The notes under the pieces were generated by a model, which was given only the letters and a program-made list of their open reading frames with translations, was not told the DNA's origin and did no database searches. 57,404 nucleotides of DNA, taken from contig JAUYAK010000067.1 in NCBI GenBank assembly GCA_030693515.1, positions 1 to 57,404 on the forward strand. Direction: 5' to 3'. This DNA comes from Opitutaceae bacterium. GTDB taxonomy: Bacteria > Verrucomicrobiota > Verrucomicrobiia > Opitutales > Opitutaceae. Made by a program: the position numbers and the translations under genes. Shown piece after piece: positions 22,595 to 57,321 of this stretch. The first letter of the stretch is position 1; each line of letters begins with the position of its first letter.

Positions 22595-22680
22595 GCCCGG
22601 GTGGCGGAATGGTAGACGCTTTCGACTTAAAATTGAATTTCCGAAAGGAAGTGCGGGTTCGAGTCCCGCCCCGGGCACCA
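22595..22680 (+). tRNA. tRNA-Leu(UAA)
   Basis: A complete 86-nt gene. Acceptor GCCCGGG pairs with CCCGGGC before discriminator A, and CCA is encoded. The anticodon arm is TTCGA-CTTAAAA-TTGAA (anticodon UAA, with one wobble pair). A long class II variable arm (TTCCGAAAGGAA) is present, and the T-arm is GCGGG-TTCGAGT-CCCGC. It differs from the truncated copy 252 bp upstream at 6 of the first 39 positions, so it is not a simple duplicate. It may be an element-borne replacement for the disrupted host gene. Confidence 0.95.
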
Positions 22681-23788: not shown

Positions 23789-24398
23789 CGCGGGCAAGTT
23801 CCAGGAAGAACGGCCGCATCCACGCCGGTGCATAGCGCAGGTCGTCCCGCAGTTGCTTCTTTTCTTTCGCCCCCATGCGGGCACGCAGCGGCTGCAAACG
23901 TTCCATGGTGATGTGGGTGCGCCCAATGTTGCGCAGCGCTTCCGAAACCCAGCCGCTGGCCCGCTCCGCCATCATCATGACCTTTGGCGACCGTCGCTTG
24001 AACTCGACCCCACCGCGACCAATCCCCTGCGAACTGCGCGAACGCCCCTGCACGCCATAAGTGCTTTTCGCCGCCACTTGCGTGCTCAAACCAAGGAGAT
24101 TCGCCGCATGTGCGCCGGAGGTCAGAAGCTTCAGCCCATCACGTCGCGCGATGGCCGCGACGACCGCATCGGCGCCGGCACCGATAGTGCCGATTAAGGG
24201 GTGCTCACGGGGGATTTCATAAACGCCACGCCTCACGCGCCGGATCGTGCCGACTTGAATCAGGCGGGTAAGCACCTTGCCCACGGAACGAGGATCGCCT
24301 AAATCAGCGAGGTCACTCGGCGTAAAAGCCCAGTCCGAGCCCTTGCCTTTGATGCGGCGGAGGACGCTGCCTTGGAGGTTGCCGTAATTTTTCTTCAT
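23781..24398 (-). CDS. AbiEi-type antitoxin / transcriptional repressor
   Basis: A 205-residue protein with an N-terminal winged-helix domain (about 1-75; FTPSDLADLGDPRSVGKVLTRLIQVGTIRRVRRGVYEIP), as in AbiEi antitoxins and DUF6088 proteins, and an AbiEi C-terminal domain. Start ATG at 24398. It overlaps the toxin gene by eight bases, so the pair is one operon. A perfect inverted repeat just upstream (24404-24435) is the likely operator through which it represses its own promoter, as known for AbiE systems. Confidence 0.85.
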   Translation of the reverse strand: MKKNYGNLQGSVLRRIKGKGSDWAFTPSDLADLGDPRSVGKVLTRLIQVGTIRRVRRGVYEIPREHPLIGTIGAGADAVVAAIARRDGLKLLTSGAHAANLLGLSTQVAAKSTYGVQGRSRSSQGIGRGGVEFKRRSPKVMMMAERASGWVSEALRNIGRTHITMERLQPLRARMGAKEKKQLRDDLRYAPAWMRPFFLELARDD

Positions 24399-39852: not shown

Positions 39853-40224
39853 TTACAGAAAAAACGATCCTTGGGTCTCAGTCGCCCGCGCGGGCGGTTT
39901 GGTGAAGCGAAGCTCGCTCGCAAAGGTATCCATCTCGCGCTCCCGGTCCTGGCCGAGTTCAGGCTGGGCGCGCAACCGCAGGAGCGAGCGCTCTTCCACG
40001 GCCAGATAGAGCGGCCCGAGATTGTGACCGCGTATCACCACCAGCCATCCGCCGATCTCGATCTTGAGGATGTCGGGTTCGCCGTGGTCCCAGCGCGCCT
40101 CGACGTAGTGCAACCAGGGGAGGTTGCGGCGCAGTGCCTTGCCGTCGTCGAATGTGACATGGCTCGCGTGGGCCGCCGTGTCGAAATGCAGCTTTGGCTT
40201 TCGGAGGACTGTGGCCGGTGTCAT
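39853..40224 (-). CDS. Hypothetical protein coupled to the relaxase
   Basis: A 123-residue soluble protein whose ATG overlaps the relaxase stop (ATGA), so it is translated with the relaxase. The core is beta-rich (DILKIEIGGWLVVIRGHNLGPLYLAVEE). No known motif. It could be a relaxosome accessory protein. Sequence 39618-39852 between it and the pilin gene is non-coding. Confidence 0.7.
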   Translation of the reverse strand: MTPATVLRKPKLHFDTAAHASHVTFDDGKALRRNLPWLHYVEARWDHGEPDILKIEIGGWLVVIRGHNLGPLYLAVEERSLLRLRAQPELGQDREREMDTFASELRFTKPPARATETQGSFFL

Positions 40225-42941
40225 AGGCTAGGACGTTCACCGTGGGTCTCACCCCGTTGTTGTTCCGCCGCCGCACCGAGCCAGGCCGCACGGATCTGAG
40301 GACTGAGATGGCGCAGCGCGCGTGGCACGAGTTGCTCGTTTTCAAGGATGCTATGACGCGTCATGAACTCCGTCGCTAGTTCCCGGCCCGGATCTGGTCG
40401 GGCAAGCCGACGGAAGATGTCATCTTTGTTGGAGACATAAATCGCGTGTGTCCCTCGGTAACGCGTGTTGCCGACGTAGAACTGGCGGCGGGCCAGCGCC
40501 CGCGCCGCCACTTCGCCGAGCACCATCAGCGACTCCTCGGAAGTGCTGCCCTGCGAACGGTAGGAGGTAAGCGCGTGACCGTAAGTCCACGCTGCGAAGT
40601 CCGGCGGCAGGACATGACCGTCCGTTAGCACGACCTTGTTCGTGACCGGATCGACGTGCGCCACCTGTTTGAAATCACCGTTGGCAAAGCCTTCGTCATC
40701 CTCGCGGCCACGAATCAGGAGTTTATCGCCCGCCGACACAGCGAGTGTTTGCTTTCGGCCCACCTCAAACGCGGCGCGCTGCTTGCGGGTGATCTTCGCC
40801 TCCCGGCCCTTCGGCCCGCGCACCCGCACGCCGTCGGACATGACCGCGACAACCTCAGCGGCCACGCCCCGTTTGAAGAACCGCGTGTCGCGCGCGAAGA
40901 GCAGTCGGTCACCAACGTGGTATTGGTCCCAATGCACTTTCTGCTCCTCCGTCCAGGTAAGAGGCTTCACCGCGTCACGCATGACCTCCGCATCGCCGAG
41001 CAGGCCGACCCGGCGCAGCGCCGGGCGAACCTGCGCGTTGAACCGTTCGATTTCCTCCCAAAAGGGAATCACGACCAAGGTCTCGATTCCTTTCACGCGG
41101 TTGCTGGCGTAGTGCTCGGCCGCACGCCGAAACATCGCTTCGTCGTCCGGCGTTTCACGAATCAGGCCGCGCCGCTCAGCAAACTCGAATGCCTCGCCGA
41201 CCTCGCCCGACGCGAGCAACCGACTGAACCGCCGGTCAGCTTCGTTGCGCTGGCGCAGCACCTCAGCGAGTCGCACGACCGGCGTGCCTGAATGCTTGAT
41301 GACGTTCCGCAGCGCGTCGCCGCGCCGCACGCTGTAATGCTGTTTCGTGTCGCCCACCAAAAGCACACGGGCGCGCACCTCGCGGGCGATCTTCGTCAGT
41401 TGGTCGAGTTGTTGCGTGGACAGAAGACCGGCCTCATCGACCAGCACAACGCGGCCCGCCGCCTGCACCTGCATGGCTTCACTGACCAGAAACCGCTGCA
41501 CCGTGTCTGCGCTGGCAAAGCCACTCTCCACCATCGCATCACGCGCCCGAGTCGTCGGAGCGAGCGGCACGAAGCGTTGACCGCCTGCCGCGACGTGCGC
41601 GCCCTCAATCGCGGTCAACACCGTCGTCTTGCCGGTGCCGGCATCACCGACCAGCACACTCATGAAGTCACGATTCGACAGAATCGCTCGCGCCGCTGTC
41701 ATCTGGCCGGGTGTGAGCATCGCCGGCAGATGCGCGGCATCGCCCAACGCGAAGCGTTGGTTGCGACCTTCGCGCACCCGCTGAACCGTTGCCTCCTCTT
41801 CGCGTCGGATCGGCCGCAGACTCATTTCGCCTTCCTTGCGAATCACGTCGGGATGCGCTTCCAACGCCACGCGCAATTCGCGCCAGCGGTAAAAATCGGG
41901 ATGCAACTCGAGCGCGGCGTTGAGCACCTCGCCTTCGCGCACGACACTACTCCGCTCATAGACGTGCCGCAGTGCCGCCTCCAGCACCGTCCGCTCGTTG
42001 CCGTGCGACCATTGCATCCGCGGCGCCTGCGCGCGCGCCGAACGAACGAGATCGTTCAACGCGTGCGTCTCATCGGCATTCAACTCCGCGCGCTGCCTCG
42101 CGCGCACTTCGGCCGTGCTGACATCCGTCAGCTTATCCTCGCGCGATTCGCGGACGAGGATTTCGACTTCGCGCTTCGTCGGCTTGCGCCCTTTCTTCAC
42201 CGCGTATTCCTCGGCGAGTTTCTGAACATGCCGCGCGCGTTTCGAGAAGCGTTCGCGCAAATGCTCGACGCCGCGGACCGAGAATCCCCTGGAGTTCATT
42301 TCATATGGCTCATAGCCCAGCGAACGCAGCCGCCCGGCCAGTTCACGATACAACACCTGGCGGAGATACGCGGAGGCCCGCAGCATTTCGACCGGTTGCA
42401 ACGCCAGCCATTCGTTGCGCGCCGCGTCCCACGTCGCGTTTGCGAACACCGCATGGCCGTGCAACTGCGGATCGAGGTCGCGGCTCGCGTCGTGAAAGAA
42501 CAGCGCGCCGACAAAATTCCGGGTGAGCCGATAGGCTTCCGTTCCCGCTGCATCACCCCGACGTTCGCGCACGGCGGCGAAGCGTTCCATTTCTGCCAGT
42601 GCGGTTTTGACCGACTCCGTGAAGGCCTCGCGAATCCGGTCATCGCCGCCCACCAGCGCGAGCACGCTCACGTCTTTCGGCGCGGATAACTGAACGTCGA
42701 AAAATGCGACGCGGTTGGCTTGGTCGCGAGCGGTCAATGCCTCGCCGGTTTTCGGATGCCGGTTTTGCCGCAGCGCATCGAACGGTTTGTCCGTCACCGC
42801 GCCTTCCAAGCCGAGCGCCTTGGCCGCTTCGCCGATCCATTCGCCGCGCACTTCTTTTTCGCCTTCCGTCCAATAATCATTTTTCCGCAGGTGATGCGAA
42901 AGATAGTTGGCTCCGTTGCGGATGACTCCGACCGTTATCAT
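40221..42941 (-). CDS. MobF (TrwC/TraI) conjugative relaxase-helicase
   Basis: A 906-residue bifunctional protein. The N-terminal relaxase domain begins with MITVGVIRNGANYLSHHLRKNDYW; Tyr13 and Tyr23 are candidates for the nicking tyrosine. The metal site is the three-histidine motif DPQLHGHAVFAN near residue 160, a typical H-x-H-x(4)-N. A RecD-like helicase follows, with Walker A GDAGTGKT near residue 440, VLVDEAGLLS (Walker B) and a GSTSEESLMV-type motif VI region. It nicks oriT and unwinds the transferred strand. The start is ATG 42941, divergent from the coupling protein across the probable oriT. Confidence 0.93.
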   Translation of the reverse strand: MITVGVIRNGANYLSHHLRKNDYWTEGEKEVRGEWIGEAAKALGLEGAVTDKPFDALRQNRHPKTGEALTARDQANRVAFFDVQLSAPKDVSVLALVGGDDRIREAFTESVKTALAEMERFAAVRERRGDAAGTEAYRLTRNFVGALFFHDASRDLDPQLHGHAVFANATWDAARNEWLALQPVEMLRASAYLRQVLYRELAGRLRSLGYEPYEMNSRGFSVRGVEHLRERFSKRARHVQKLAEEYAVKKGRKPTKREVEILVRESREDKLTDVSTAEVRARQRAELNADETHALNDLVRSARAQAPRMQWSHGNERTVLEAALRHVYERSSVVREGEVLNAALELHPDFYRWRELRVALEAHPDVIRKEGEMSLRPIRREEEATVQRVREGRNQRFALGDAAHLPAMLTPGQMTAARAILSNRDFMSVLVGDAGTGKTTVLTAIEGAHVAAGGQRFVPLAPTTRARDAMVESGFASADTVQRFLVSEAMQVQAAGRVVLVDEAGLLSTQQLDQLTKIAREVRARVLLVGDTKQHYSVRRGDALRNVIKHSGTPVVRLAEVLRQRNEADRRFSRLLASGEVGEAFEFAERRGLIRETPDDEAMFRRAAEHYASNRVKGIETLVVIPFWEEIERFNAQVRPALRRVGLLGDAEVMRDAVKPLTWTEEQKVHWDQYHVGDRLLFARDTRFFKRGVAAEVVAVMSDGVRVRGPKGREAKITRKQRAAFEVGRKQTLAVSAGDKLLIRGREDDEGFANGDFKQVAHVDPVTNKVVLTDGHVLPPDFAAWTYGHALTSYRSQGSTSEESLMVLGEVAARALARRQFYVGNTRYRGTHAIYVSNKDDIFRRLARPDPGRELATEFMTRHSILENEQLVPRALRHLSPQIRAAWLGAAAEQQRGETHGERPSL

Positions 42942-42977
42942 GCTCAAAAGCACGGCCGGAAATCTCGGCTCATACAA

Positions 42978-43266: not shown

Positions 43267-44892
43267 ATGAAACCACTCCCGGCACCTCAAGTTTTGCTCC
43301 GCGAATGGCTCCACCATCCGCATGCCATCACGGTCGCCGCGTTCGCTGTCGCCGGGCTTTTCCTCGGGATTGCGGGCTGGTTTATCCATCGGAATCTACG
43401 CCACAATGAGCCCGGTTTACGCGCCCCGCTCACGCTGCCTTTCGCGTTGATCATCTCGGCCGCCGGGGTGTTCGGCGCGGGCCGTCTCCCTGCTCCGTTT
43501 GGGCTTATCGTGGGAGCAGCCGTCTGCGGCCTCGCCGGACTCCTTTTCTTTTACGCCGACCACCGACGTTTCGTCCGTGATCCGGCGAGAAAGATCGTCG
43601 CGGATCGGTGGCAAATCGTCCTCGCCTTCGCTGGCTTCCGGTGGACTCGCGACAAAGCCAACCGGCATTTCTTTTTCTCCGGCGACACCGGTTCCGGCAA
43701 AACCTCCGGCATGAACGGCCTCATGGCCGCGCTCATCAGCCGCAATCCGACGCTCGGCGGCGTAGTGATGGCAAACAAGGGCGATGAGTGGTTTTACCTC
43801 GAATGGCTGGCCAAGAAATACGGTCGCGAGAAGGACATCATCCGCCTCCGCCCCCGTTTGGTGGGCGAACCGGAGAAATCCGCGCACCGGCTCAATGTCA
43901 CCGGCGACGCCCGCCTGCCATTCACCACCCGCGCCCGCATCTTGGTGGACACGGCCGCCGCGCTCAATCCGAAGGATGAAAAAAGCTTCTTCAAAGTGAA
44001 GGGTGCCGCGCACATCGGCCGGGCTTTCGAGCTTCTTGCCGACATTGGCCGGCCGGTCACCGCCACCAACGCCTACGACCTCCTCACGTCCGAGAAAGAG
44101 TTGAGAGCCGCTCTGGAGAAACTGACCACGATAGACCCGACCGAACGCCGCAGCCGCCTTGCCGAGACCTTCGAGCAGACCTACCTCAACCACCAGGCCA
44201 AGGAACAGCGGGCGGGTGAAATCGGCACCTCCCAGAACTATCTCGAATATCTCGGCACACAGGAAATCGCGGAAATTTTCAGCTCCAATGAACCTGACAC
44301 GTGTTCCATCGCCGACGTGGACAACGGGAAAATCTTCTGCATCGACGTGCCCCAGGACTACACGACCGAGCGCCAGTATGTTTTCACGGTCATCAAACTC
44401 CTCATCTACCGCCACGCGCTCAGGCGCTACGCCCTCCCGCCGTATCAGAAATACGCCCTCAACCAGCTTATCTACGTGGGCGATGAGTTTCAAAACGCCA
44501 TCACCGCCAGCCACGACGGGACGAGCGATTTCAACGTCATTGACCGGCTGCGCGACTGCCTGCTCATGCTGGTGGTATCCGCCCAGGCATTCGAGTCGCT
44601 CATTCCGCCGCAGACCAAAGAGCAGGCTGAGGTGCTTGCGCTCAATTTGAAGAACCTCGTCATGTATCGCGCCGCCTCGGAAACCGACGCGCTCCGTTGC
44701 GCCAACGCCCTCGGCAAACATTGGGTCCAACGGGCGACGCGCACCGTGCATCTCGACCACACCGCGCATTCCTACAGCCGAGTGGAGGAGTTCCTCATCA
44801 AGCCTCATGAATTCCGCAAGCTGCCGGACCACACGGCCGTCGTCCGCCACTGCACCAATGGTTTCAGGAAGGTCTCTCTTCGTCCCAGCTAA
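43267..44892 (+). CDS. VirD4/TraD-like type IV coupling protein
   Basis: A 541-residue hexameric ATPase that brings the relaxosome to the channel. Two N-terminal membrane helices are at about 20-40 and 58-95. Walker A is GDTGSGKT at 139-146, and Walker B is LIYVGDEFQN near residue 405. A C-terminal segment MLVVSAQAFESLI acts as the sensor region. The all-alpha domain lies around residues 215-320. It is transcribed away from the minus-strand transfer cluster, across the probable oriT. Confidence 0.9.
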   Translation: MKPLPAPQVLLREWLHHPHAITVAAFAVAGLFLGIAGWFIHRNLRHNEPGLRAPLTLPFALIISAAGVFGAGRLPAPFGLIVGAAVCGLAGLLFFYADHRRFVRDPARKIVADRWQIVLAFAGFRWTRDKANRHFFFSGDTGSGKTSGMNGLMAALISRNPTLGGVVMANKGDEWFYLEWLAKKYGREKDIIRLRPRLVGEPEKSAHRLNVTGDARLPFTTRARILVDTAAALNPKDEKSFFKVKGAAHIGRAFELLADIGRPVTATNAYDLLTSEKELRAALEKLTTIDPTERRSRLAETFEQTYLNHQAKEQRAGEIGTSQNYLEYLGTQEIAEIFSSNEPDTCSIADVDNGKIFCIDVPQDYTTERQYVFTVIKLLIYRHALRRYALPPYQKYALNQLIYVGDEFQNAITASHDGTSDFNVIDRLRDCLLMLVVSAQAFESLIPPQTKEQAEVLALNLKNLVMYRAASETDALRCANALGKHWVQRATRTVHLDHTAHSYSRVEEFLIKPHEFRKLPDHTAVVRHCTNGFRKVSLRPS

Positions 44893-47058: not shown

Positions 47059-48207
47059 TCAGGTGAAGCCCAGCATCGTATGAAAGCCTGCTATCCACCG
47101 GTCGTAAAAATGAGGCGTGTGCCAGATCACGGTGAGACCGGACGTCGCTGCGTCGCATAGGTCTTCGGCGTTCGCCGCTTGGAGGGCCTGATCCGGTGGA
47201 GCCGGCGGGATGCTCTGTCTCGGAGTCCTAGGCTGATATTGGGCGATTAGCTCCACGGACCGGGTCGCCAGGCGCGCGACCAGCGCGTCGGGGCAAAACG
47301 CCTTGTATTCGTTGGTCACCGTCAGCCGTGCCGCCATCTGCTGCCAGTCACTCCACACCTCGGAGACTCCAGCGCCCTGCTGCTGCTCCGCGCTCAATGC
47401 GAGATAACTGACCCTAATCCGTGTCGCGTGCGGCGGGTAGTCGCAGTCCACCGCATAGGGATCCATCGTGTTAGCGCGTGAGAGGTCCACCATCGAGAGG
47501 ACATTCACTGCTCCGCAGGTGTAGCTGGCGAAGACGTCGCAGAACACCTCCACCAGTCGGTGTTCGTCCCAGTAGCTGGCGGCCTCGTCGATCTGCCGAA
47601 GACGTTTCACCCTCTGGGCAGGGAGCATCGGACCGAGCTTGTGCCGTTCGGAATCGAAGTGTTCAGCGACCATCTGCTCGAGAGCGAAGACAATCTCGCG
47701 ATGTTTGCTGACGACGCAGTGCCCGAATTCGTGGAAGATGCCGGGAAGGCTGAGAACACTGAGATGCTGATTGGGCGGCGCGAAAAAGACCGGAATCGAG
47801 TGATCGCGGTGGCGGGCCGGGATGATCGAGAGGTCGCGATCGAGGCGGACTAGGATGTCTTCGATCCAGGTGAGGCCGATGCGGTGAGCCGTCTTCAGCA
47901 GCAGCTGCCGCCACCGCAGTTCCTCTTTACCCTGTTGCAGCAGGCCGGCGATGTAGTGCTCGGAGAGATCGCGTAGGTGGGCATTGAGCGTGAAGCAGGC
48001 TTTCTCAGCCACCCACCGCATAGCCGGCTCGGTCAAGGCGTGTTCAATTCCGCGGAGCGTCTGGGCATCGTCCGCGAGCTGGGCCTCAAGCCGATCGAGA
48101 AGTTTGTAGTGCGGGAGGTTTTTATCTCGGAATTCAGCCAGCTTGCGCCGCGACCAATCAAGGTTGGTGGCGTGTTCGACCGCCTTGGCTGCGAGATAGC
48201 GCGGCAT
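47059..48207 (-). CDS. HEFGH zinc metallopeptidase, last gene of the Argonaute operon
   Basis: A 382-residue predicted cytoplasmic zinc peptidase. The zinc motif is H159-E-F-G-H163 in GIFHEFGHCVV, with E220 and D224 of HRLVEVFCDVFASY about 57 residues later as the likely third ligand (gluzincin-like E-x3-D). The helical N-terminal 130 residues resemble no known prodomain. No signal peptide or membrane helix. It starts seven bases after the coiled-coil protein gene, so it is co-transcribed. Its substrate is unknown; it could cleave a system component, a conjugate or a host or phage protein on activation. Confidence 0.8.
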   Translation of the reverse strand: MPRYLAAKAVEHATNLDWSRRKLAEFRDKNLPHYKLLDRLEAQLADDAQTLRGIEHALTEPAMRWVAEKACFTLNAHLRDLSEHYIAGLLQQGKEELRWRQLLLKTAHRIGLTWIEDILVRLDRDLSIIPARHRDHSIPVFFAPPNQHLSVLSLPGIFHEFGHCVVSKHREIVFALEQMVAEHFDSERHKLGPMLPAQRVKRLRQIDEAASYWDEHRLVEVFCDVFASYTCGAVNVLSMVDLSRANTMDPYAVDCDYPPHATRIRVSYLALSAEQQQGAGVSEVWSDWQQMAARLTVTNEYKAFCPDALVARLATRSVELIAQYQPRTPRQSIPPAPPDQALQAANAEDLCDAATSGLTVIWHTPHFYDRWIAGFHTMLGFT

Positions 48208-48214
48208 CGGGAGG

Positions 48215-48628
48215 TCAGCGCTTGCGGATGCGGTTCGAGCAAGCGACAACCTCGCGGCGCAGCAGGTCAAGGATCTGCCGGATCGTCTCGATGTCCTTGT
48301 CGACGGCCGAAGCTCCCGCCTGCAGATGGTCGGAAAGCGACTTCAGGTCGTCCTTCCAGTCCTCCAACGGAGTCTTGCTCACCTTGATGGAATCTACGAT
48401 CGGCGCGAAGTCGGACGAGGGTGCCGGAGGAGACTCCAGACCGTCCAAGACCGATTTCACGAAATCCGTCGTGCGCGCCCGAGCTTGAGCGACCCGCTCG
48501 GTGGTGAATCCGAACTTCGAGGTCAGGCCCAAGCTCTCCGCCTGGATCACTGTCGCGTCGCCGACCAAAGCCTCCAAACGCCCTTCTAGGCGATCGAGCT
48601 TATCCGACATGAAGCCGAGAGAGCTCAT
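48215..48628 (-). CDS. Coiled-coil small protein of the Argonaute operon
   Basis: A 137-residue soluble protein built of two heptad-rich segments (about 1-55, MSDKLDRLEGRLEALVGDATVIQ; about 85-137, ending DIETIRQILDLLRREVVACSNRIRKR) joined by a Pro/Ser-rich linker. Its ATG overlaps the Argonaute stop by four bases. It could form a scaffold or an inhibitory partner joining Argonaute to the metallopeptidase. No family recognised. Confidence 0.7.
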   Translation of the reverse strand: MSSLGFMSDKLDRLEGRLEALVGDATVIQAESLGLTSKFGFTTERVAQARARTTDFVKSVLDGLESPPAPSSDFAPIVDSIKVSKTPLEDWKDDLKSLSDHLQAGASAVDKDIETIRQILDLLRREVVACSNRIRKR

Positions 48629-50943
48629 GCTGCCTCCTCATCCCCTTCTCCGTCCGCGTCAGCGTCGGACAGCCTGGCGTATCGCAAGGCATCGTCGTTC
48701 CAGCGGATCGTGACCGGAAGGGATATCTCGATGTCCGGTGCGTTCCAGTTGAGGGCAGTGAGATAGTAGGCGTCGCGCGCGAGATCCTCGATGGAAAATT
48801 CGCCATCCTGCCGGGCGAGCCTCAGCAAGAGGGTGCTGGCGCTCCTGCCCTGCCGATCCCAGACGCCCGGCTTTCCGGTCGTGGTCATGACCACCGATTC
48901 ATCGTCCAACCGCAGGTAGCTTCCTGGCATCGGATTTTCAAAGCGGGAGCCCGTCGCGCCGAAGAGCCGCAGCGGCAGATGACTCTTGCGGATCTCGACC
49001 ACTGCGACACGACAATCCTCGGCCAACGAGCCGTCGCGCTTGAGTTCGGTGATCACACCCGTGAGTGCGGAGTCTTCCCGCGACCACCAGCGGCCGTCGC
49101 GGTGGATGACGATGCTGCGCAGGGGCACGCCAGCGGATCGTGCCGACATGATGCCGCTTCGAAGCTTGCTCCGCAGATCGGCCGGATTGATCGACTCGTG
49201 CATGCGATTCCGCTGGTTGAACTCGCCGAAGTCGATGTAGGTCGACCGACCGCCGCGCCCGTAAAGGAAGGAATAGCTTACACGATTGTGGAGCACGTCG
49301 ATGCCTGCGTAAAAGTCGTGGGCGAGGGAATCTGCCAAGACCCACGGTTGGATTCCGGCGGCGGTGAGGACGCCAAGCGCAAGGTTGCGAACCCGGCTGG
49401 AGCCCTTACCATCGCGCAGCATCCTGCCGACGCCCCATTCCGTGACACATTGGGTCGGCATGCTAACGAGCGTGTTCTTGAGTTCGCCGTATACGTGGCT
49501 TCCGAGTTGGCGGCCCAGAACGATCACGGGCAGCATGGTCTCGGATGATTCTGCGATCTGTCGCGCCTCCGCGAGAAGGCCTGACCCGGATCGAGGACTG
49601 GATCCCAAGCGGTAGCAAATCTGCCGGCTTACCGTAACCCGATTGCCCGTAAGGGCCGCGAGTTCCCCAACGAGCATCTCTAGGAAATGCTCTCGATCCT
49701 GTCGCGGCATCGTCTCGGGATACATCAGCGCCAAGTCGGGCAGCGGCTGCGTCGAATACGTGCCATGCTTGTAGAGGTAGTTCGTCTTCTCGGAGCGCCA
49801 GACGTTGAATTCGCCTTCGGTGGGGCCTTTGGCACCTGAGCGGCAATCAAGGCACTCCTCGCCCCCGTATTCCAGCGACGGTGGAGCGAAGACGTTTCGA
49901 GGAAACACCATCGGATTAAGGCCGCACGTGACGGTTTTGCCCTCGACCAGCACCTTGCCGACGCGATTGAGGAACACCCGCAGCGCATATACGCGTTCAT
50001 CTGGTGCCATCCACGGTTCCACCGAACACGATCGCATGCCCTCCTCCTCGGTCGTGAAGACGGGATAAAGGCAGGAGGCTGGAACCGCGAAGGCGTCCGG
50101 TCGGCCGTGGTCCCGGACAAACACGGCTTCGTCCCATGGATTCACGGTGACGTTCGGATAGGCCTGCTTGTAGTAGTCGAGAACGGTCTGCTTCCCGTCA
50201 CCGAAGACGAATTCGCTGACCTTCTTTCCGGTCTCGCCGGTGTATTTGCAGCCGAATTTTTTGCTGCCGTTGTCGCGAGTGAAGAGAGCGCGGTCCTCGA
50301 ACTTGATGTCGGTATTCAGGTGCTCACGGAGGATGTCCGCGCGCTCCTCTGGTGAGTGATGCGCCAGTGACTTCCGTCCGATGTAGCGGGTCTGCACATC
50401 GGCCGCCAGGAATGGGTTGCCGTCGATGAAGATGACGGAAAAGCGAATGCCGCGATAGGCGTTCACAACGTCATCAGCCGCACCCTTGTTCTCGGGCTCG
50501 AGGTTGAAGTAGAGATTCCAGCGGATCTTCCAGAAATGCTGCGGTTGGGCCCTGAAGGCGTCGGAGATCGACCGTTCGATGATCTTCGCCGCTACGTCCC
50601 GTTCCGACTCCGAGGCCCCCTTGGGAGTTATCGTGAACACGTCGTCTGTCGTCTCGATCGGGTAGGTGCGGTCGGGAACGTCGTGAACGGTGGCGACGAC
50701 CGGAGTGGAGGCGAACTGAGCGGAAGAAGGCACCAAGAAGCCGGGCACGCCTTGGCGTTTCGTCGGGAAGACCGGGCATTTGAGCTTCCGCCATAGATCC
50801 ATGGCCCACTTCTGCATGCGGACTGCCTGCAGGTCGTCGTTGGGAACGGCGGCCGCGACTCGGAGAAAGCGGAGGGAATAGACGTGGCCTTCCAGGCCGC
50901 TGATCGGAAAGAGCGTGGCTGCGAGGTCGGGTTGATTAGGCAT
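48625..50943 (-). CDS. Long prokaryotic Argonaute with complete DEDD catalytic tetrad
   Basis: A 772-residue protein. A PAZ-like region lies at about 250-295 (TVLDYYKQAYPNVTVNP, then VFVRDHGRPDAFAVPASCLYPVF). The MID domain at about 470-535 has Y485, K489 and Q498 for 5'-phosphate binding. The lysine usual in the next helix (AKLGG-type) is alanine (LTAAG). In PIWI the residues are D549 (GIDV), E583 (MHES, with the spacing of the glutamate finger), D616 (HRDG) and D750 (RWNDD), so guide-directed cleavage is likely. The start is ATG 50943 (MPNQPDL), eight bases inside the upstream gene; the longer frame to 51162 is a shadow. Guide type, DNA or RNA, is not determined. Confidence 0.9.
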   Translation of the reverse strand: MPNQPDLAATLFPISGLEGHVYSLRFLRVAAAVPNDDLQAVRMQKWAMDLWRKLKCPVFPTKRQGVPGFLVPSSAQFASTPVVATVHDVPDRTYPIETTDDVFTITPKGASESERDVAAKIIERSISDAFRAQPQHFWKIRWNLYFNLEPENKGAADDVVNAYRGIRFSVIFIDGNPFLAADVQTRYIGRKSLAHHSPEERADILREHLNTDIKFEDRALFTRDNGSKKFGCKYTGETGKKVSEFVFGDGKQTVLDYYKQAYPNVTVNPWDEAVFVRDHGRPDAFAVPASCLYPVFTTEEEGMRSCSVEPWMAPDERVYALRVFLNRVGKVLVEGKTVTCGLNPMVFPRNVFAPPSLEYGGEECLDCRSGAKGPTEGEFNVWRSEKTNYLYKHGTYSTQPLPDLALMYPETMPRQDREHFLEMLVGELAALTGNRVTVSRQICYRLGSSPRSGSGLLAEARQIAESSETMLPVIVLGRQLGSHVYGELKNTLVSMPTQCVTEWGVGRMLRDGKGSSRVRNLALGVLTAAGIQPWVLADSLAHDFYAGIDVLHNRVSYSFLYGRGGRSTYIDFGEFNQRNRMHESINPADLRSKLRSGIMSARSAGVPLRSIVIHRDGRWWSREDSALTGVITELKRDGSLAEDCRVAVVEIRKSHLPLRLFGATGSRFENPMPGSYLRLDDESVVMTTTGKPGVWDRQGRSASTLLLRLARQDGEFSIEDLARDAYYLTALNWNAPDIEISLPVTIRWNDDALRYARLSDADADGEGDEEAA

Positions 50944-51934
50944 GGGCGTAGCGGTCAAGCGTTTGGCGGCAGAGCTGCCGGAAGCCGCACTGGCGGCAGG
51001 TGTGCACATTGTAGGCGTAAGAGAGTTCGTCCCTGATGATGACTCCGGCTTGCAGGCATTCCTCCCATTGGCGGGTGAGTCGCACGCTGTTTCGGAGCGT
51101 CGAGCGCAGCAGCGGCAACGTTTCGTCGTCCAGCTTGTGGGTTTCGACGACCGGCGACTCATTGCCGAAATAGACGAGGTTGCTCGAAATGGCCGGGGCC
51201 TCCACGCCCAAGCTCAGGAGCGGCCACAGCTGGTAGATGCCAACCTGCAGCTCGTGCTGGCCGAGAAAGGGCGGCTTGTCCGTGGGCGCTCGGCCCGACT
51301 TCCAGTCGTAAATCTCGAAACCCTCGCCGTGCCGGCCGAAGGCCAAGTCCACCTTGGTGATGACTTGGACGCCGTCTTCCCAAAAGCCGGGTGCTTCGGG
51401 TCCCCAGGCATCCGGTTCGATCCAAACCCGGTCTGCGTCCTTCATCCGCGCGATAAGGTTAACCTCGGCCACCCAGGATAGGAACCGCTCCAAGAGGGTT
51501 GCTACCTGATCGCTGGCGGACTCCGGCGATTTGTCGGCCGGCATCTCTCCATAGAAGTGCTCAAGAAGGGCCGCGCCCTCCTTGTCGATGGCGTATGGCT
51601 TCTTGAGGAATGTGCGCTGCGAGGAGAAGTGCCAATCCGAGGCGACCTGCTGGCGGGCTAATGAGATGAGCCGGTCCGCCGTGAGCGGGGTGTCCCCGCC
51701 ATGAGAGTGGAAGAACTCTGCAATCCCGCGATGGAAGACCTCTCCCAACCAAACCGGATACGGTTTGAGCTTCTTCAGGAGGCCGATCTCCCGGAGTTCG
51801 GGAGTTTCACCGTTCAGGCGGCCCCCGGCGAGATACTGGAAGAAGTATTTCCGCTCGCACACCTGCAGCATCTGGTCGCGACTGACGGACCAAGAGCTCG
51901 GCGTGGTGGAGGGGTTGGCAGCAGGCTGGACCAT
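50936..51934 (-). CDS. Cas4/RecB-like PD-(D/E)XK nuclease with Fe-S-type cysteines
   Basis: A 332-residue nuclease. Catalytic motifs appear in order: H68 (GEVFHRG), D196 (KVDLAF), D210-W-K212 (EIYDWKSG) and Q230-x3-Y234 (QVGIY). Four cysteines, C26 near the N-terminus and C313, C316 and C322 at the C-terminus (TCRQCGFRQLC), match the 4Fe-4S cluster of Cas4/AddB-type enzymes. Its stop overlaps the Argonaute start by eight bases. Such nucleases are known neighbours of some prokaryotic Argonautes and may make or trim guides, or degrade the target. It appears complete. Confidence 0.88.
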   Translation of the reverse strand: MVQPAANPSTTPSSWSVSRDQMLQVCERKYFFQYLAGGRLNGETPELREIGLLKKLKPYPVWLGEVFHRGIAEFFHSHGGDTPLTADRLISLARQQVASDWHFSSQRTFLKKPYAIDKEGAALLEHFYGEMPADKSPESASDQVATLLERFLSWVAEVNLIARMKDADRVWIEPDAWGPEAPGFWEDGVQVITKVDLAFGRHGEGFEIYDWKSGRAPTDKPPFLGQHELQVGIYQLWPLLSLGVEAPAISSNLVYFGNESPVVETHKLDDETLPLLRSTLRNSVRLTRQWEECLQAGVIIRDELSYAYNVHTCRQCGFRQLCRQTLDRYAHA

Positions 51935-51946
51935 GGGAGCGGGCTC

Positions 51947-52282
51947 TTATTCCTCCTTCTGGGCAGCTCCGTCTTTGAACGGCGCCCGCGAAGGTTTCCG
52001 TCCGTCCCGAGCGAAGGCTCCGGACGGCAGCGAGTCGTCGCCGCCAACGATGGAATCGACGAGTTTCTTCAGTCTCTCTTTGACCGTCCCACTGGTCTGG
52101 ACGGCCTGGGTCCGGACAGCCTCCCGCTTTTCCGGCGCGAGGGCCGAGAGCCGCTGCATGAACGCATCAACGTCCACGCCTTCAGCTTGGAGGCTGCGGC
52201 GCAGCTCTGCGTTGGTGAGTCCTTCGGTGTCGGAGAGCACCCGGTTCAACCGGGCGGTCGCTTCATTGTTTTGCTGTTTCAT
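51947..52282 (-). CDS. Small hypothetical protein of the Argonaute operon
   Basis: A 111-residue protein from ATG 52282, which overlaps the end of the sigma-like gene by 20 bases. It is mostly helical (LNRVLSDTEGLTNAELRRSLQ, then VDAFMQRLSALAPEKREAVR) with a disordered Ser/Gly/Pro-rich C-terminus. No membrane segment. It might bind the sigma-like protein or the nuclease as a regulator. Not recognised. Confidence 0.65.
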   Translation of the reverse strand: MKQQNNEATARLNRVLSDTEGLTNAELRRSLQAEGVDVDAFMQRLSALAPEKREAVRTQAVQTSGTVKERLKKLVDSIVGGDDSLPSGAFARDGRKPSRAPFKDGAAQKEE

Positions 52283-52862
52283 GGGTCGCTCCTTCAGTGT
52301 TGAGCGCAGCAAGGACGCGTTCTGCGACGGCCTTGAGGCGCCTGCGTAATTCATAAGTCTGGGCCACCGTGAATCCGGTGGCTGCGGTGATTTCGGGTAT
52401 CGTCTCCGCGCCGGTTTCAATGGCGCGGGCAAATTTGGTGAGGTCAGCGCTCCGCTTGACCTGGTTGTCATCATAAAGGCGCTGCCAGAACGACGCGCAG
52501 TAGTCGTCGTCGCCGACGGCATCGGCGGGATTTCCCTCGGCCATGAATGCGACCAGGGTTTCCGGATCCGCCGGCGCCGTGGTCCGGGCTTCCTTGGAGG
52601 TATAGAGATTCCAGAGCACGCTCCGGATGGCGCCCTTCAACTGCACGAGGATGTCGACCCCGGGGTTGATCTTCCGCTGGCCGGTGACGTAGGCGGAGTA
52701 GACATCGCAGACGAGGTCCTCGGGAGTCTGCCCATTGGGGAGCGGTTTCCCTGAACTCCAGCGATAATGGGTGCGCGCCCAATAGAGCGTGAACGTGAGC
52801 AGCTGGAGGCCGACCGACTCCCAGTCGGCCAACGAGCTCTCGTCTGCGGATTCGTGATGCAT
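52263..52862 (-). CDS. Sigma-factor-like protein, first gene of the Argonaute operon
   Basis: A 199-residue protein that looks like a diverged ECF sigma factor. Residues 45-95 (GQTPEDLVCDVYSAYVTGQR, then DILVQLKGAIRSVLWNLYTS) follow the region 2 pattern, in which a D-A-E-D-L-V-type helix binds core polymerase. Residues 145-190 (IPEITAATGFTVAQTYELRRRLKAVAERV) form a region 4-like helix-turn-helix. It heads the operon, its start 165 bp from the divergent multi-ubiquitin gene. It could turn on both operons. A DNA-binding regulator of another family remains possible. Confidence 0.65.
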   Translation of the reverse strand: MHHESADESSLADWESVGLQLLTFTLYWARTHYRWSSGKPLPNGQTPEDLVCDVYSAYVTGQRKINPGVDILVQLKGAIRSVLWNLYTSKEARTTAPADPETLVAFMAEGNPADAVGDDDYCASFWQRLYDDNQVKRSADLTKFARAIETGAETIPEITAATGFTVAQTYELRRRLKAVAERVLAALNTEGATHETAKQ

Positions 52863-53027
52863 GGCGTGTGTATCCCTATGGCTGGCGACCCCGCCACTTT
52901 TGGTAAGAAAAATTCAGATTTCGCGCACTTAATTAAATACGAAAGACAACACGCACCTAGCCCTAGGAGGGGGACGGCACAACGACTCAATCAAGAGTCG
53001 AGGCCGCCAGCAGAAACCACAAACAAG
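52863..53027. promoter_or_regulatory. Divergent promoter region of the Argonaute and multi-ubiquitin operons
   Basis: The only intergenic space between the two operons. It holds an AT-rich segment with TTAATTAA at 52929-52936, a near-palindrome CCTAG-CC-CTAGG at 52956-52967, an AGGAGGGGG tract at 52965-52973 about 55 bp before the multi-ubiquitin start, and an inverted repeat GACTC-N6-GAGTC at 52984-52999. A shared bidirectional control element is likely; individual -35/-10 boxes cannot be fixed by eye. The multi-ubiquitin ATG itself lacks a Shine-Dalgarno. Confidence 0.6.
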
Positions 53028-53723
53028 ATGACTACCAAGTCCTCCCTCAACGCGGCTCCCCGCCGTTTCGCCCTCATCAACGACCGCATTATCACTGCTC
53101 CAAAGGAGGTTGTGCCGGTTTCCGTGCTGCGCGCTCTCGCCAGCATCGCCGCGGACCAAGTCCTGGTCCGTGACCACGGCTCGCCCAACGACATGGTGCT
53201 CGACGACCGCGCCACGGTCGACCTCAACGACGGCAACGTCTTCTACACCCGCGCCCGCTGCGACGCCACGCCGCCGGCCGCCTGCGGCTCGCCGGCCAAG
53301 CTCGCCTTCGCGGTGGATGACACCTTCGAGCTTTCGACCGCCGCTGAACTCCCCTTCGAGGCGTTCATGGCGCTCTTCGGCCTCGAGGCGGGCAAGCAGC
53401 TCTTCCGCGACTTCGAGTCGCCGAACGACCAGCCCGTCGCCCCTGGCTCGGTCCTCCGCTTCAAGGATGGCCCGGTTTTCTACACGCGCGGTGGCCAGCA
53501 CCACGACGCCCGCGTGGAGATCACGATCGACGGCGTGAAGCACAAGGTTGCTCCGGGCAAGACCTCCGGCGCCGACCTCAAGAAGATCGGCAACGTCCCG
53601 CTCGCCGACGAGCTGATCCAGAACATCGGCGGCAAGCTCACGCCCCTCGCGGACGACGCCACCCTGTGCATCGCGGGCGGCGAGGAATTCGTCAGCCACC
53701 CCCGCTGCGGCGCCTCCTCCTAA
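53028..53723 (+). CDS. Multi-ubiquitin-domain protein (three beta-grasp repeats)
   Basis: A 231-residue ubiquitin-like modifier precursor. Three beta-grasp repeats follow each other at about 12-80, 88-155 and 160-225. The first two share landmarks (LVRDHGSPND / LFRDFESPND and NVFYTRAR / PVFYTRGG); the third keeps EITIDG and FVSHPR. The tail is H-P-R-C-G-A-S-S. It has no Gly-Gly, but removing the last three residues would expose Gly228, a plausible conjugating end made by the JAB peptidase. Multi-ubiquitin operons are known from comparative genomics. ATG 53028. Confidence 0.88.
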   Translation: MTTKSSLNAAPRRFALINDRIITAPKEVVPVSVLRALASIAADQVLVRDHGSPNDMVLDDRATVDLNDGNVFYTRARCDATPPAACGSPAKLAFAVDDTFELSTAAELPFEAFMALFGLEAGKQLFRDFESPNDQPVAPGSVLRFKDGPVFYTRGGQHHDARVEITIDGVKHKVAPGKTSGADLKKIGNVPLADELIQNIGGKLTPLADDATLCIAGGEEFVSHPRCGASS

Positions 53724-54064
53724 TGAGCTTCCCTCCCGACCAGATCGCGGAGCTGCAGGCCTTGGTGCCGGGTGTGATGGCGTGCCGGGAAGGAGTGGTG
53801 AGCTACTTCCTCCTTCCTGGCCTCCAGCTGCCCGCCGGCTGCACGCCCTCCAAGGTGGACGCGCTCCTCTGCCCCACGCCGCGGGACGGCTACGAGTCCC
53901 GCCTCTTTTTCAGTCAACTGGTGACGTCGACATCCGCGAGGAACTGGCACGTCACCAACACGCGAATCGTCGACCGGCAGTGGTGTGCGTTCTCGTGGAA
54001 GACCAACAAGACCGGGCTGCGCCTCGCGCAGATGGTCGTCGAGCACCTCTGCGCAATAAAATGA
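53723..54064 (+). CDS. Prokaryotic E2 family E-like protein
   Basis: A 113-residue UBC-fold-like protein whose ATG shares one base with the multi-ubiquitin stop. It has the small-E2 pattern of multi-ubiquitin operons: LQLPAGCTPSKVDALLCPTPRDGY, RLFFSQLV, RNWHVTN, then RQWCAFSWKTN and LRLAQMVVEHL. C57 (LLCP) is the best candidate for the thioester cysteine because it follows the expected strand; C36 and C95 are also present. It would receive the modifier from the ThiF-like enzyme. A non-catalytic binding role cannot be excluded. Confidence 0.75.
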   Translation: MSFPPDQIAELQALVPGVMACREGVVSYFLLPGLQLPAGCTPSKVDALLCPTPRDGYESRLFFSQLVTSTSARNWHVTNTRIVDRQWCAFSWKTNKTGLRLAQMVVEHLCAIK

Positions 54065-54561
54065 AAGTCGAACTCCGCATCCCTTCCACCATCCGCGCCG
54101 AGGCCCTGAAGGACTTGGCTCGACAGCACGCGTTCGCCTTTGAGCGGGTCGGCTTCCTGGCGGCCACGACGACCCTTCTGGGCCTGGATCATCACTTGGT
54201 CCTTATCACGGACTATCACCCCGTGCCTGATGACCATTACATCGACGACCCGTCTGTCGGGGCCTGCATTGGCGGCGCGGCCATCCGCGCCGCGATGCAG
54301 CGAGTGATCGACGAGGGCAAGGGCCAGCTTCACGTGCACCTCCACGATCACGCCGGGCCCACCGGCCCGAGCTTCACGGACCGCAAGGGGCTGCCGCCTG
54401 TGGTCCGCAGTCTGGCGACCGTGGGGCCCAACCAGGCTTCCGGCTATCTCCTCTTCAGCTCGGACTCCGCATGGGCAGAGCTCCGGGTCCCCGGCGTGGC
54501 AGCGCCGGTCTTGGCCACCAAAATCACCTCTGTCGGCTTCCCTCTTCTTTTCCTGAAATGA
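54061..54561 (+). CDS. JAB/JAMM isopeptidase-like protein
   Basis: A 166-residue Prok-JAB-type metallopeptidase. The JAMM elements are an early glutamate (FERVGFLAAT, about residue 26) and the zinc site in QLHVHLHDHAGPTGPSFTDRKGL, giving an H-x-H-x(8)-S-x(2)-D pattern near residues 85-100. Such enzymes release or trim ubiquitin-like modifiers. The start at 54061 overlaps the E2-like stop by four bases. It is the likely maturation protease for the Cys-Gly-Ala-Ser-Ser tail and for removing conjugates. Confidence 0.85.
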   Translation: MKVELRIPSTIRAEALKDLARQHAFAFERVGFLAATTTLLGLDHHLVLITDYHPVPDDHYIDDPSVGACIGGAAIRAAMQRVIDEGKGQLHVHLHDHAGPTGPSFTDRKGLPPVVRSLATVGPNQASGYLLFSSDSAWAELRVPGVAAPVLATKITSVGFPLLFLK

Positions 54562-55376
54562 ACCCTCCCATCGATCAGAGCGCGTTCTCGCGCCAGTCCT
54601 TCCTCGGCCCGAATTCGCAGCAGCACATCGCAGCATGCGTCGTGGGCATCGCCGGGCTCGGCGGCGGTGGCTCCCACATCGTCCAGCAGCTCGCCCACAT
54701 CGGCTTCATGAACTACGTCCTCTTCGACCGTGACGCCATCGAGGAGAGTAATCTGAACCGGCTGGTGGGCGGAACGATGCAGGACGTCATCGATAAACGC
54801 CTGAAGATCGAGATCGCCCGTCGCTTGATTCTCGGGATCCGGCCCGGCGCGAACGTCCGGGTGATCGCCGACGTGTGGCAGAACCAACCGGAGGCCGTGA
54901 AGGGCTGCGACATTGTCTTTGGTTGCGTCGATGGTTTTGACCAACGGCGTCAGCTTGAGGCGACGACCCGCCGATTTCTGATTCCCATCATCGACATCGG
55001 CATGGATGTGTATCGGCCGCCGGGCTGCGCTCCGTCGATTTCCGGTCAGGTAATCCTATCGATGCCGGGCCACGCCTGCATGACCTGTATGGGTGTTCTC
55101 AACGAGCGGAACCTCGCCAAGGAAGCTGCCGCATACGGCGATGCAGGCGCGCATCCCCAAGTCGTCTGGTCGAACGGGGTCCTAGCATCTATTGCCGTGG
55201 GTGTGGCGGTCGATCTCGTCACCGACTGGTCACAGACGCTCAGGGGCTCAGTATACCTTTCCCATCGTGGAAACCTCGGCACGGTTGCCGTGGACCCGAC
55301 GCTTTGCTTCGCGCCATGCACGTGCTGTCACTTCCCCTTGCGCGAGGCCGGGCCGGTGGCGTTTCGTCCTCTGTAA
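54558..55376 (+). CDS. ThiF/E1-like adenylating enzyme
   Basis: A 272-residue E1-like protein. The ATP-binding Rossmann motif is GIAGLGGGGSHIVQQLAHIG (about 34-53). The family's DRDAIEESNLNRL motif, with the arginine finger region, is at about 62-75, and the GCVDGFDQRRQLE aspartate motif at about 125-137. Two cysteine pairs, C-M-T-C in the middle and C-T-C-C near the C-terminus, are probable zinc ligands. It would adenylate the modifier's C-terminal glycine. The transfer cysteine is not clear. It overlaps the JAB gene by four bases and ends the operon. Confidence 0.9.
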   Translation: MNPPIDQSAFSRQSFLGPNSQQHIAACVVGIAGLGGGGSHIVQQLAHIGFMNYVLFDRDAIEESNLNRLVGGTMQDVIDKRLKIEIARRLILGIRPGANVRVIADVWQNQPEAVKGCDIVFGCVDGFDQRRQLEATTRRFLIPIIDIGMDVYRPPGCAPSISGQVILSMPGHACMTCMGVLNERNLAKEAAAYGDAGAHPQVVWSNGVLASIAVGVAVDLVTDWSQTLRGSVYLSHRGNLGTVAVDPTLCFAPCTCCHFPLREAGPVAFRPL

Positions 55377-56457: not shown

Positions 56458-57321
56458 ATGAACACGTTCGATTCCGTTCCCGTTGCTCCCGCCCGCGTCT
56501 TCAAGGCGCTTTCGTCCGATGATCTCCGCCGCTGCGCTCCCTCGGTTTTCGCCGAACACGCCCGGCCCGGCGTTTCCTCCCGTTACACGTTCGTTTCCAC
56601 CCAGCAGGTCGTTGCCCTGCTCGGGGCCGAAGGCTGGGAGCCTGTCAAAGCCTCCGAGCAACGCGTGCGCTTGGAGGACCGCATCGGATTCCAGATGCAC
56701 GAGATTCGTTTCGCGCGTCGCGCCGACCTGGAGGCGGGACCGTTTCAAGTAGGCAGTGCGCGCGCGGAGATGATTCTACAAAACGCGCACGACGGCAGCC
56801 GCGCCTATCGGATCGACGCCGGCCTTTACCGGCTGGTTTGCCGTAACGGGCTGACCGTGGCCGATGCGGATTTCGCGCATGTTTCCATCCGGCACATGGA
56901 CGTTTCAGCGGAGGCGTTCGCGAAGGCCGCGCAATCGGTCGCCGAGAGCACGCCGCGCGTGTTGGAGGCGGTCGCCAAGTGGCAGGCCGTGCAACTCCCG
57001 CAGGCGACGCGGGTCGAGTTCGCGCGTCGGGCGGCGATCCTGCGTTGGGATGCCGACCAGCCGGTGATGAAGTTACTCAGCCCTGAAAAATTGCTGACAC
57101 CGGTGCGCTATGGCGATGCTGCCACCGATCTCTGGACGACGCTCAACGTCGTCCAAGAGCACTTGGTGCGCGGTGGTGACCGCTACATGGGTTACACCGA
57201 GGGCATGGGCATCCGCCGCAACCGGACTCGCGGCGTAGCCGGCATCGGTGAAGGTCAGAAACTCAACAACGGGCTTAACTCCGATATCGGAGTTAGGCTC
57301 CTTATCCCGACATGCCGATAA
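56458..57321 (+). pseudogene. DUF932-like gene with disrupted C-terminus
   Basis: A 287-residue frame. The bulk matches DUF932 proteins of plasmids and integrative elements: RYTFVSTQQVVALLGAEGW, then EMILQNAHDGSRAYRI, YRLVCRNGLTVAD, and the C-terminal RRNRTRGVAGIGEGQKLN. In the family this last motif is followed by a short helix of the L-W-T-L-A-E-K type; here it changes after K-L-N to unrelated residues read from palindromic DNA (57276-57320). The gene seems cut near 57270 by an insertion. Whether the shortened product works is unknown. Role in the family: uncertain, plasmid or phage-associated. Confidence 0.7.

Follow-up and report, generated by a model that had tools for sequence, protein, structure and literature searches.

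In a contig of an Opitutaceae bacterium (phylum Verrucomicrobiota; GenBank assembly GCA_030693515.1, contig JAUYAK010000067.1, positions 1 to 57,404, the whole of which is here called the window), an operon for a prokaryotic Argonaute (pAgo), a Cas4-like nuclease and a zincin-type metallopeptidase stands head to head with an operon for a multi-ubiquitin-like protein and an E1-like adenylating enzyme. The linkage of the two operons is fairly well supported, and since the pairing is repeated in distant relatives with different ubiquitin-like cassettes, the two operons probably cooperate in a single defence or stress unit. We give about even odds to the reading that the locus, borne by a conjugative-type element, works as a single unit whose two parts can be exchanged. 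The reading is built on gene content, conserved active-site residues, the recurrence of the pairing, the co-inheritance of the core genes and the kinship of helix-turn-helix (HTH) genes at two core loci.

Ten intact open reading frames (ORFs) occupy positions 47059-55376 and form, as the first-pass annotation made from the bare sequence had claimed, two packed operons that read away from a 165-bp spacer. Neighbouring genes are spaced by -20, +12, -8, -4 and +7 bp in the left operon and -1, -4 and -4 bp in the right one (negative values are overlaps). The features are, beginning with the left operon and going outward from the spacer in each case:

52263..52862, minus strand: sigma-like regulator, 199 aa (intact ORF; weak sigma-factor fold match)
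51947..52282, minus strand: small protein X, 111 aa (20-bp overlap with the sigma-like gene)
50936..51934, minus strand: Cas4-like PD-(D/E)XK nuclease, 332 aa (Pfam PDDEXK_1, PADLOC Aga_Cas4-like_Nuc)
48625..50943, minus strand: full-length prokaryotic Argonaute, 772 aa (PADLOC pAgo_II, E = 1.3e-51)
48215..48628, minus strand: second small protein, 137 aa, starting MSSLG (intact ORF; a putative coiled coil according to the first-pass annotation)
47059..48207, minus strand: zincin-type metallopeptidase, 382 aa (H159-E160-x-x-H163 and E220-x-x-x-D224)
52863..53027: spacer between the operons, 165 bp
53028..53723, plus strand: multi-ubiquitin-like protein, 231 aa, C-terminus ...HPRCGASS (by homology to the loci L023, L024, L008 and L009 described below)
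53723..54064, plus strand: putative E2-like protein, 113 aa (labelled by position)
54061..54561, plus strand: JAB/JAMM-like peptidase, 166 aa (homologues; weak Prok-JAB support)
54558..55376, plus strand: ThiF/E1-like adenylating enzyme, 272 aa (Pfam ThiF, E = 3.7e-25)

The core, as we call it here, is the run of nuclease, Argonaute, small protein and zincin genes in this order. It was found at eight loci, namely in the window, in two Verrucomicrobia metagenome-assembled genomes (L008 and L009) and on five plasmids (from Bacteroidota, Rhizobium and a cyanobacterium), and a one-off pairing in the window is ruled out by the recurrence of the arrangement. L008 and L009 were detected by scanning genome contigs with an alignment of the window Argonaute and VbAgo, a scan that used two short peptide patterns only and surely missed relatives. 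The two loci are near-copies (Argonautes 97% identical) and resemble the window in the nuclease (43% identity), the Argonaute (46-47%), the small protein (30%) and the zincin (32-34%). In both, a multi-ubiquitin gene (36-37% identity to that of the window) is divergent from the Argonaute operon, and the right operon consists of two fused genes, multi-ubiquitin with Prok-E2_E and JAB with E1 (Prok-E2_E 2.6e-8 in L008; Prok-JAB 7.3e-6 and 1.5e-5; ThiF 3.8e-19 and 2e-22), the E1 being just 23-26% like the window E1 in the matched part. In a collection of 72,556 plasmid records, in which there is no near DNA match to the window, the zincin of L008 finds four records and that of L018 five, and the Argonaute of L016 finds the same five. 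For example, the Spirosoma oryzicola plasmid (L016) has the order sigma-70, X, nuclease, Argonaute, small protein, zincin, with divergent genes for multi-ubiquitin, ThiF and DUF6527 391 bp from the Argonaute operon, and in the Runella plasmid (L017) an HTH gene precedes the core, with multi-ubiquitin, ThiF and DUF6527 genes following on the same strand 312 bp downstream of the zincin. Taken together, a multi-ubiquitin operon lies less than 400 bp from the core at five of the eight loci (four of seven if L008 and L009 are counted once), divergent in four cases and downstream in one; by group these are all three Verrucomicrobia loci and two of the five plasmid loci. The trees of Argonaute and zincin branch alike, two of the zincin branches being weak. 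A whole-genome census, which covered the window's own phylum, found the Argonaute in 1 of 387 genomes by protein search and in 2 of 384 genomes of the class by profile search, one of the two being that of L009 (G432, counted once), and the zincin in 2 of 374.

Three cassette architectures are found beside the core: multi-ubiquitin, a possible E2, JAB and E1 as separate genes (window), the multi-ubiquitin-E2 and JAB-E1 fusions (L008 and L009), and multi-ubiquitin, ThiF and DUF6527 (L016 and L017). The E1s of the Argonaute loci take three separate places in an 18-row tree, whose long branches call for caution, and their union in one clade is rejected (approximately unbiased test, p-AU 0.00045). 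It follows from the three places that cassettes were joined to the Argonaute core, or swapped at it, more than once. The window E1 is sister to the E1 of L023 (72% identical), a locus without Argonaute. L016 and L017 likewise have sister E1s (58% identical); their Argonautes are 23% identical and stand on separate branches, and their cassettes are placed differently. The spacer, where a recent insertion boundary would, according to the first-pass annotation, speak against a unit, is also an evolutionary joint, since the nearest relatives of the window's ubiquitin cassette (E1 72% and 64%) both adjoin other front ends. How often such a pairing would arise by accident was estimated from the plasmid collection: the multi-ubiquitin protein of L017 as query matches 84 of the 72,556 records, two of which are among the five core records, and five records drawn at random would include at least two of these with a probability of about 1.3e-5, rising to 1.8e-3 were the gene carried by as many as 1000 records. 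These estimates are rough, the records being redundant and the plasmids unequal in size; the separate lineages of the partner cassettes are the stronger argument.

Several observations weigh against taking the two operons for a unit. The set is small, with eight loci of which two are near-copies. At the loci of Emticicia (L015), Rhizobium (L014) and the cyanobacterium (L018) the core is present and no multi-ubiquitin gene is annotated in the flanks of about 9 kb; PF14452, the multi-ubiquitin model, has no match anywhere on these three plasmids, and it misses the window's own multi-ubiquitin protein too. Four haloarchaeal plasmids matched by the window Argonaute were excluded from the eight, having no zincin match, and the one inspected shows no multi-ubiquitin annotation within 9 kb. 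Seen from the ubiquitin side, none of 14 other loci (13 with multi-ubiquitin, and L004 with E1 alone) has the core Argonaute, nuclease, small protein or zincin within the stretches of 6-20 kb examined, and among the 4 of 387 own-phylum genomes that have a close E1 only that of the window has the core. Multi-ubiquitin operons are far commoner than the Argonaute core; the neighbourhoods read comprise 5 of the 136 plasmid records with an E1 match and 7 of the 84 with a multi-ubiquitin match, two of the latter being core loci. The G+C content (GC) of the left and the right half of the window locus differs (0.614 versus 0.647; at third codon positions, GC3, 0.762 versus 0.824), which is in line with separate origins. 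In the spacer (52863-53027) a scan for sigma-70 promoters gives no match. A script search for words of 7-9 bases that occur on both strands gave one 7-base pair and the palindrome TTAATTAA in the window spacer and none in the spacers of L008 and L009. Also considered as a linked case and rejected was the ThiF gene of the L018 plasmid: it is about 20 kb off, its neighbours are type III clustered regularly interspaced short palindromic repeats (CRISPR) genes, and multi-ubiquitin is not annotated there.

A further point of this kind comes from the conjugation genes that the window contig carries next to the locus:

43267..44892, plus strand: coupling-protein ATPase of a type IV secretion system, convergent with the Argonaute operon, 2.2 kb off
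40221..42977, minus strand: TrwC-type relaxase of a conjugative-type element (Pfam TrwC, 2e-73)
35868-38570: TraG/TraC-type ATPase, a conjugation gene on the same contig

Coupling-protein ATPases of about 40% identity also stand convergent past the zincin in L008 (14 bp) and L009 (4.5 kb). A part of the co-occurrence in window, L008 and L009 may therefore reflect the shared descent of one element. This gene, the GC gap, the 3 of 5 plasmid cores without a visible multi-ubiquitin gene, the 0 of 14 other loci with a core, and the defence-like genes nearby (an AbiEii-type gene on the window contig; a phospholipase of the cyclic-oligonucleotide-based anti-phage signalling system type beside L014) all fit an explanation by which two independent defence systems met by chance at hot spots of mobile elements, the spacer having no functional meaning. 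We consider such a meeting possible but doubtful, as distances below 400 bp at five of eight loci and three cassette types at the same site are hard to explain by it; the same kind of cassette is, moreover, taken up by distant Argonautes (L016 and L017), and the HTH genes of two core loci are of a kind common to ordinary multi-ubiquitin loci. The first-pass annotation had proposed that the two operons are a unit and that close homologues of either nearly always lacking the other would refute this. For the Argonaute side, which is mostly paired, the proposal is supported, and better so than one window alone would allow, whereas multi-ubiquitin operons mostly occur without the core.

The Argonaute has VbAgo as its best PDB relative (E = 8.6e-221; 48% identity over 762 aligned aa, residues 4-758), and its D549, E583, D616 and D750, which we take from Argonaute motifs to be the catalytic tetrad, are the same in all eight core loci, form a complete DEDD set in the window and stand at positions matching those of VbAgo (PDB 9v65 and others; 9v7s is VbAgo-DM). 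The Argonaute is thus predicted from its sequence to be catalytically competent; relatives of it were not found in viral contigs. The nuclease matches Pfam PDDEXK_1 (E = 5.5e-18) and PADLOC Aga_Cas4-like_Nuc (E = 1.6e-14) and has a PD-(D/E)XK core plus four cysteines (C26, C313, C316 and C322), as in the pAgo-associated Cas4-like nuclease; D196, D210-x-K212, Q230, C313, C316 and C322 are kept in all eight core loci and C26 in seven. Nuclease and ThiF protein are the only members of the ten-gene locus with a significant Pfam match, the sigma-like protein, the two small proteins, the zincin and the multi-ubiquitin, E2 and JAB proteins of the window having none. Homologues of X are present in L008 and L009 (29-33% identity), and a gene of 118-145 aa stands between Argonaute and zincin in eight of eight core loci.

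The zincin keeps H159, E160, H163, E220 and D224 in all eight core loci. When the eight zincins were scanned with Pfam, each family hit was confined to a single member and none was a peptidase (best Dit_N, 0.0042), and the structure model is poor (mean pLDDT, the predicted local distance difference test score, 52). The conserved nuclease-Argonaute-small protein-zincin operon is hereby defined, with a zincin that belongs to no family in the libraries searched. A further member of the core peptidase family was met in the window's own phylum in the genome G371, where a 415-aa HELGH zincin (E = 2.3e-6 to the core zincin profile) and a gene for a 158-aa partner lie at L022:9427-11158; this was rejected as a core locus, 20 kb of sequence giving neither a core nor a ubiquitin match at E 1e-4.

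Of the ubiquitin operon, the first-pass annotation had said that multi-ubiquitin, E2, JAB and E1 form a known module. This stands in so far as the operon is of the Bub-like kind, with E1 and multi-ubiquitin protein; the E2 is unconfirmed and the JAB label weakly supported. The E1 matches the PADLOC E1-E2 model (E = 2.5e-8), with Citrobacter BubCD as best PDB relative (3.7e-16). The multi-ubiquitin protein is assigned by homology only: it is 59%, 49% and 28% identical to its homologues in L023, L024 and L003, of which that of L003 matches PF14452 with 8e-23 and that of L024 with only 0.038 (L008, 0.01). Multi-ubiquitin proteins of the window type end in GASS (window, 53712-53723), GGSS, GHSS or GQSS, such that a diglycine would be exposed only once the two serines are removed, and not in all members; in L008 and L009 the sequence VVGG is found just ahead of the fused E2 part. 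The JAB-like protein is 61% and 52% identical to its homologues in L023 and L024. Its label, weakly supported as it is, is suggested by a weak Prok-JAB match (PF14464, E = 0.006) of the L003 homologue, an alignment by hhalign with the JAB part of L008 and L009 (E = 5.5e-4, probability 30%) and conserved E, HxH, S and D residues identified by eye.

What the linkage may mean is best approached from the multi-ubiquitin loci without Argonaute. In 8 of the 13, a regulator or small gene is divergent from the multi-ubiquitin operon and is accompanied by a peptidase of the ImmA/IrrE family. Five of these (L003, L005, L006, L025 and L035) have an HTH or small gene with the peptidase, and three (L023, L024 and L026) have a sigma-like gene, a small gene and an IrrE-family peptidase, where sigma-like is our own reading, which Pfam does not support in L024 and L026. 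Four of the peptidases (L023, L024, L025 and L026), from ORF calls, match Pfam Peptidase_M78/IrrE (PF06114) at 1.8e-8 or better, and those of the remaining loci were taken from the record annotation. L007 has an Xre-RES pair beside the multi-ubiquitin gene, and L031 and L032 have other genes. The only HTH genes among the core loci, in L014 and L017, are related to those of such loci: with the HTH of L003, that of L017 shares 45% identity and that of L014 42%, and with the HTH of L006 the values are 53% (over 74 aa) and 41%, both the L003 and the L006 HTH preceding an ImmA/IrrE gene. From the shared HTH genes and the regulator-peptidase sets it would follow that the zincin may fill the peptidase slot in the Argonaute loci. 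In L034 (1108-8316) and L033 (1091-8298) a regulator, X and a UvrD helicase are followed on one strand by multi-ubiquitin, ThiF and DUF6527 genes, and UvrD seems to stand in for the Argonaute core there.

Two side observations belong here. The window's own genome has a second multi-ubiquitin operon on contig C25 (about 17.3-21.4 kb; L026:8268-12396), with a PF14452 match and JAB fused to E1, opposite the sigma-like gene, small gene and IrrE-family peptidase already mentioned and with no Argonaute match. In L003 (10046-13425), L006 (10071-13438) and L035 (8500-12007) the multi-ubiquitin operon, of two different cassette types, is followed by genes for an ATP-binding protein and an S8-family peptidase, which may be one more partner module.

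With regulator and peptidase present at multi-ubiquitin loci both with and without Argonaute, and with L033 and L034 having UvrD placed between regulator/X and the multi-ubiquitin gene, the link could be purely regulatory, both operons answering one DNA-damage signal via a common regulator-peptidase switch and acting in parallel. This is unlikely, in our view, given that the zincin is tied to the Argonaute subclade (the same five plasmid records) and is present where a ubiquitin operon is unseen. For the two operons acting as one unit, we infer instead a front end and a back end. The front end would consist of a regulator (depending on the locus, the sigma-like protein with small protein X or an HTH repressor), the Cas4-like nuclease, the Argonaute, the small protein and the zincin, and the back end would be the Bub-like multi-ubiquitin conjugation cassette. 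Argonaute and nuclease would sense foreign or damaged nucleic acid by recognising and cutting it; the cutting event, directly or via the fragments made, would activate the zincin; the zincin, whose substrate by analogy to CapH/CapP would be the regulator holding the control region in the spacer off, would inactivate this regulator; and the ubiquitin-like cassette would then be expressed and tag its target proteins, presumably to the benefit of defence. Only tentatively do we propose such a nucleic-acid-guided response, in which recognition of foreign DNA or RNA by the Argonaute, relayed by the zincin, switches on ubiquitin-like conjugation, and in which the same back end plugs into other sensors (UvrD, ImmA/IrrE switches).

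At the level of its parts this scheme meets four difficulties. First, the core zincin is not recognisably of the ImmA/IrrE family, with no Pfam match and an hhalign alignment over a 12-column HExGH stretch only. Second, the window has no HTH repressor, its sigma-like gene being without a Pfam HTH match. Third, the sigma label of the 199-aa protein is weakly supported. The protein is 43-45% identical to homologues in L008 and L009, has no relatives in viral contigs or in the plasmid collection, and 17 of the 21 best Foldseek matches of its low-confidence model (mean pLDDT 64) are titled sigma factor, AlgU, CnrH and SigW being taken by us as such; the best E is 0.048, none is below 0.001, and the template modelling (TM) scores are 0.22-0.39. 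In L015 and L016 its position is occupied by sigma-70 region 4 genes, to which the window-type group was not joined by hhalign, and hhalign of the sigma-like profiles against the other regulators gave nothing. Fourth, the E2 label of the 113-aa protein rests on position and is not confirmed: it is 71% and 58% identical to the homologues in L023 and L024, four homologues scanned have no Pfam family, and hhalign with the Prok-E2_E part of L008 and L009 gives E = 0.11.

As to the direction of control, the first-pass annotation had left it open whether the Argonaute triggers tagging or tagging controls the Argonaute or the peptidase. The former is favoured over tagging that controls the Argonaute, because the control genes sit in the Argonaute operon. 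That the tag or the zincin acts on Argonaute proteins, tagging restraining the Argonaute and the zincin removing or maturing tags, is suggested by the neighbourhood, in which a peptidase beside a tagging cassette could process tags; but JAB or DUF6527 genes are already part of the cassettes, and three core loci without a visible multi-ubiquitin gene retain the zincin, which makes tag processing unlikely as its main job. This alternative appears to us highly improbable.

Argonautes and ubiquitin are hallmark systems of eukaryotic cells. In bacteria, Argonautes and ubiquitin-like systems have so far been studied separately, to judge from the literature matches listed, among which there is, as the first-pass annotation had supposed, no description of the two as a unit; an earlier description is possible. 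The parts themselves are known. The adjacency of a long pAgo and a Cas4-like nuclease, recognised as a known module already in that annotation, agrees with PADLOC (pAgo_II and Aga_Cas4-like_Nuc) and with a pAgo survey (Ryazansky et al. 2018, PMC6299218), in the main text of which the words ubiquitin, peptidase, protease and sigma do not occur. Compared with that pair, the window adds the zincin and the small protein, and such core loci often have a ubiquitin operon. The type 6e operons (Iyer et al. 2006, PMC1779556) are described as comprising polyUbl, an inactive E2-like protein and JAB fused to E1, and the main text of that paper has no Argonaute or PIWI. With these Bub/polyUbl systems the window shares the multi-ubiquitin protein, the E1 and a putative JAB (L016 and L017 have DUF6527), and it differs in having an Argonaute operon as front end and an unconfirmed E2.

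The proposed switch is modelled on CapH and CapP. The pairs ImmR/ImmA and PprI/DdrO are related to it. According to PMC13373217, the main text of which does not mention Argonaute, CapW or the pair of CapH and CapP accompanies 219 of 544 Bub operons, CapP is activated by binding single-stranded DNA and then cleaves the repressor CapH, and protection from phages by Bub operons is not demonstrated. The Deinococcus protease PprI senses DNA damage via direct interaction with single-stranded DNA, as stated in the title of PMC10904395. The likeness of the window lies in a regulator and an HExxH peptidase adjoining an immune operon; unlike CapH, the regulator of the window is sigma-like, not an HTH protein of that kind, and the zincin is not detectably ImmA/IrrE. 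The combination is what we regard as new, with an Argonaute operon as modular front end to a ubiquitin-like cassette. The recurrent pairing opens a direct route to the stimuli that multi-ubiquitin (Bub-like) operons answer, and it raises the question of what an active pAgo does besides cutting. If the proposal is true, guide-directed sensing would control protein tagging in bacteria.

Three minor features of the contig remain to be mentioned. A gene at 22757-23926 adjoining a tRNA-Leu (22595-22680) was considered as an integrase, which was ruled out, the gene being the AbiEii-type nucleotidyltransferase referred to above. The GC is about 0.63-0.73 up to 20 kb and about 0.57-0.67 beyond, a drop that may mark an edge of the mobile element. 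Just past the ubiquitin operon, at the end of the contig, lies a DUF932 gene (56458-57321).

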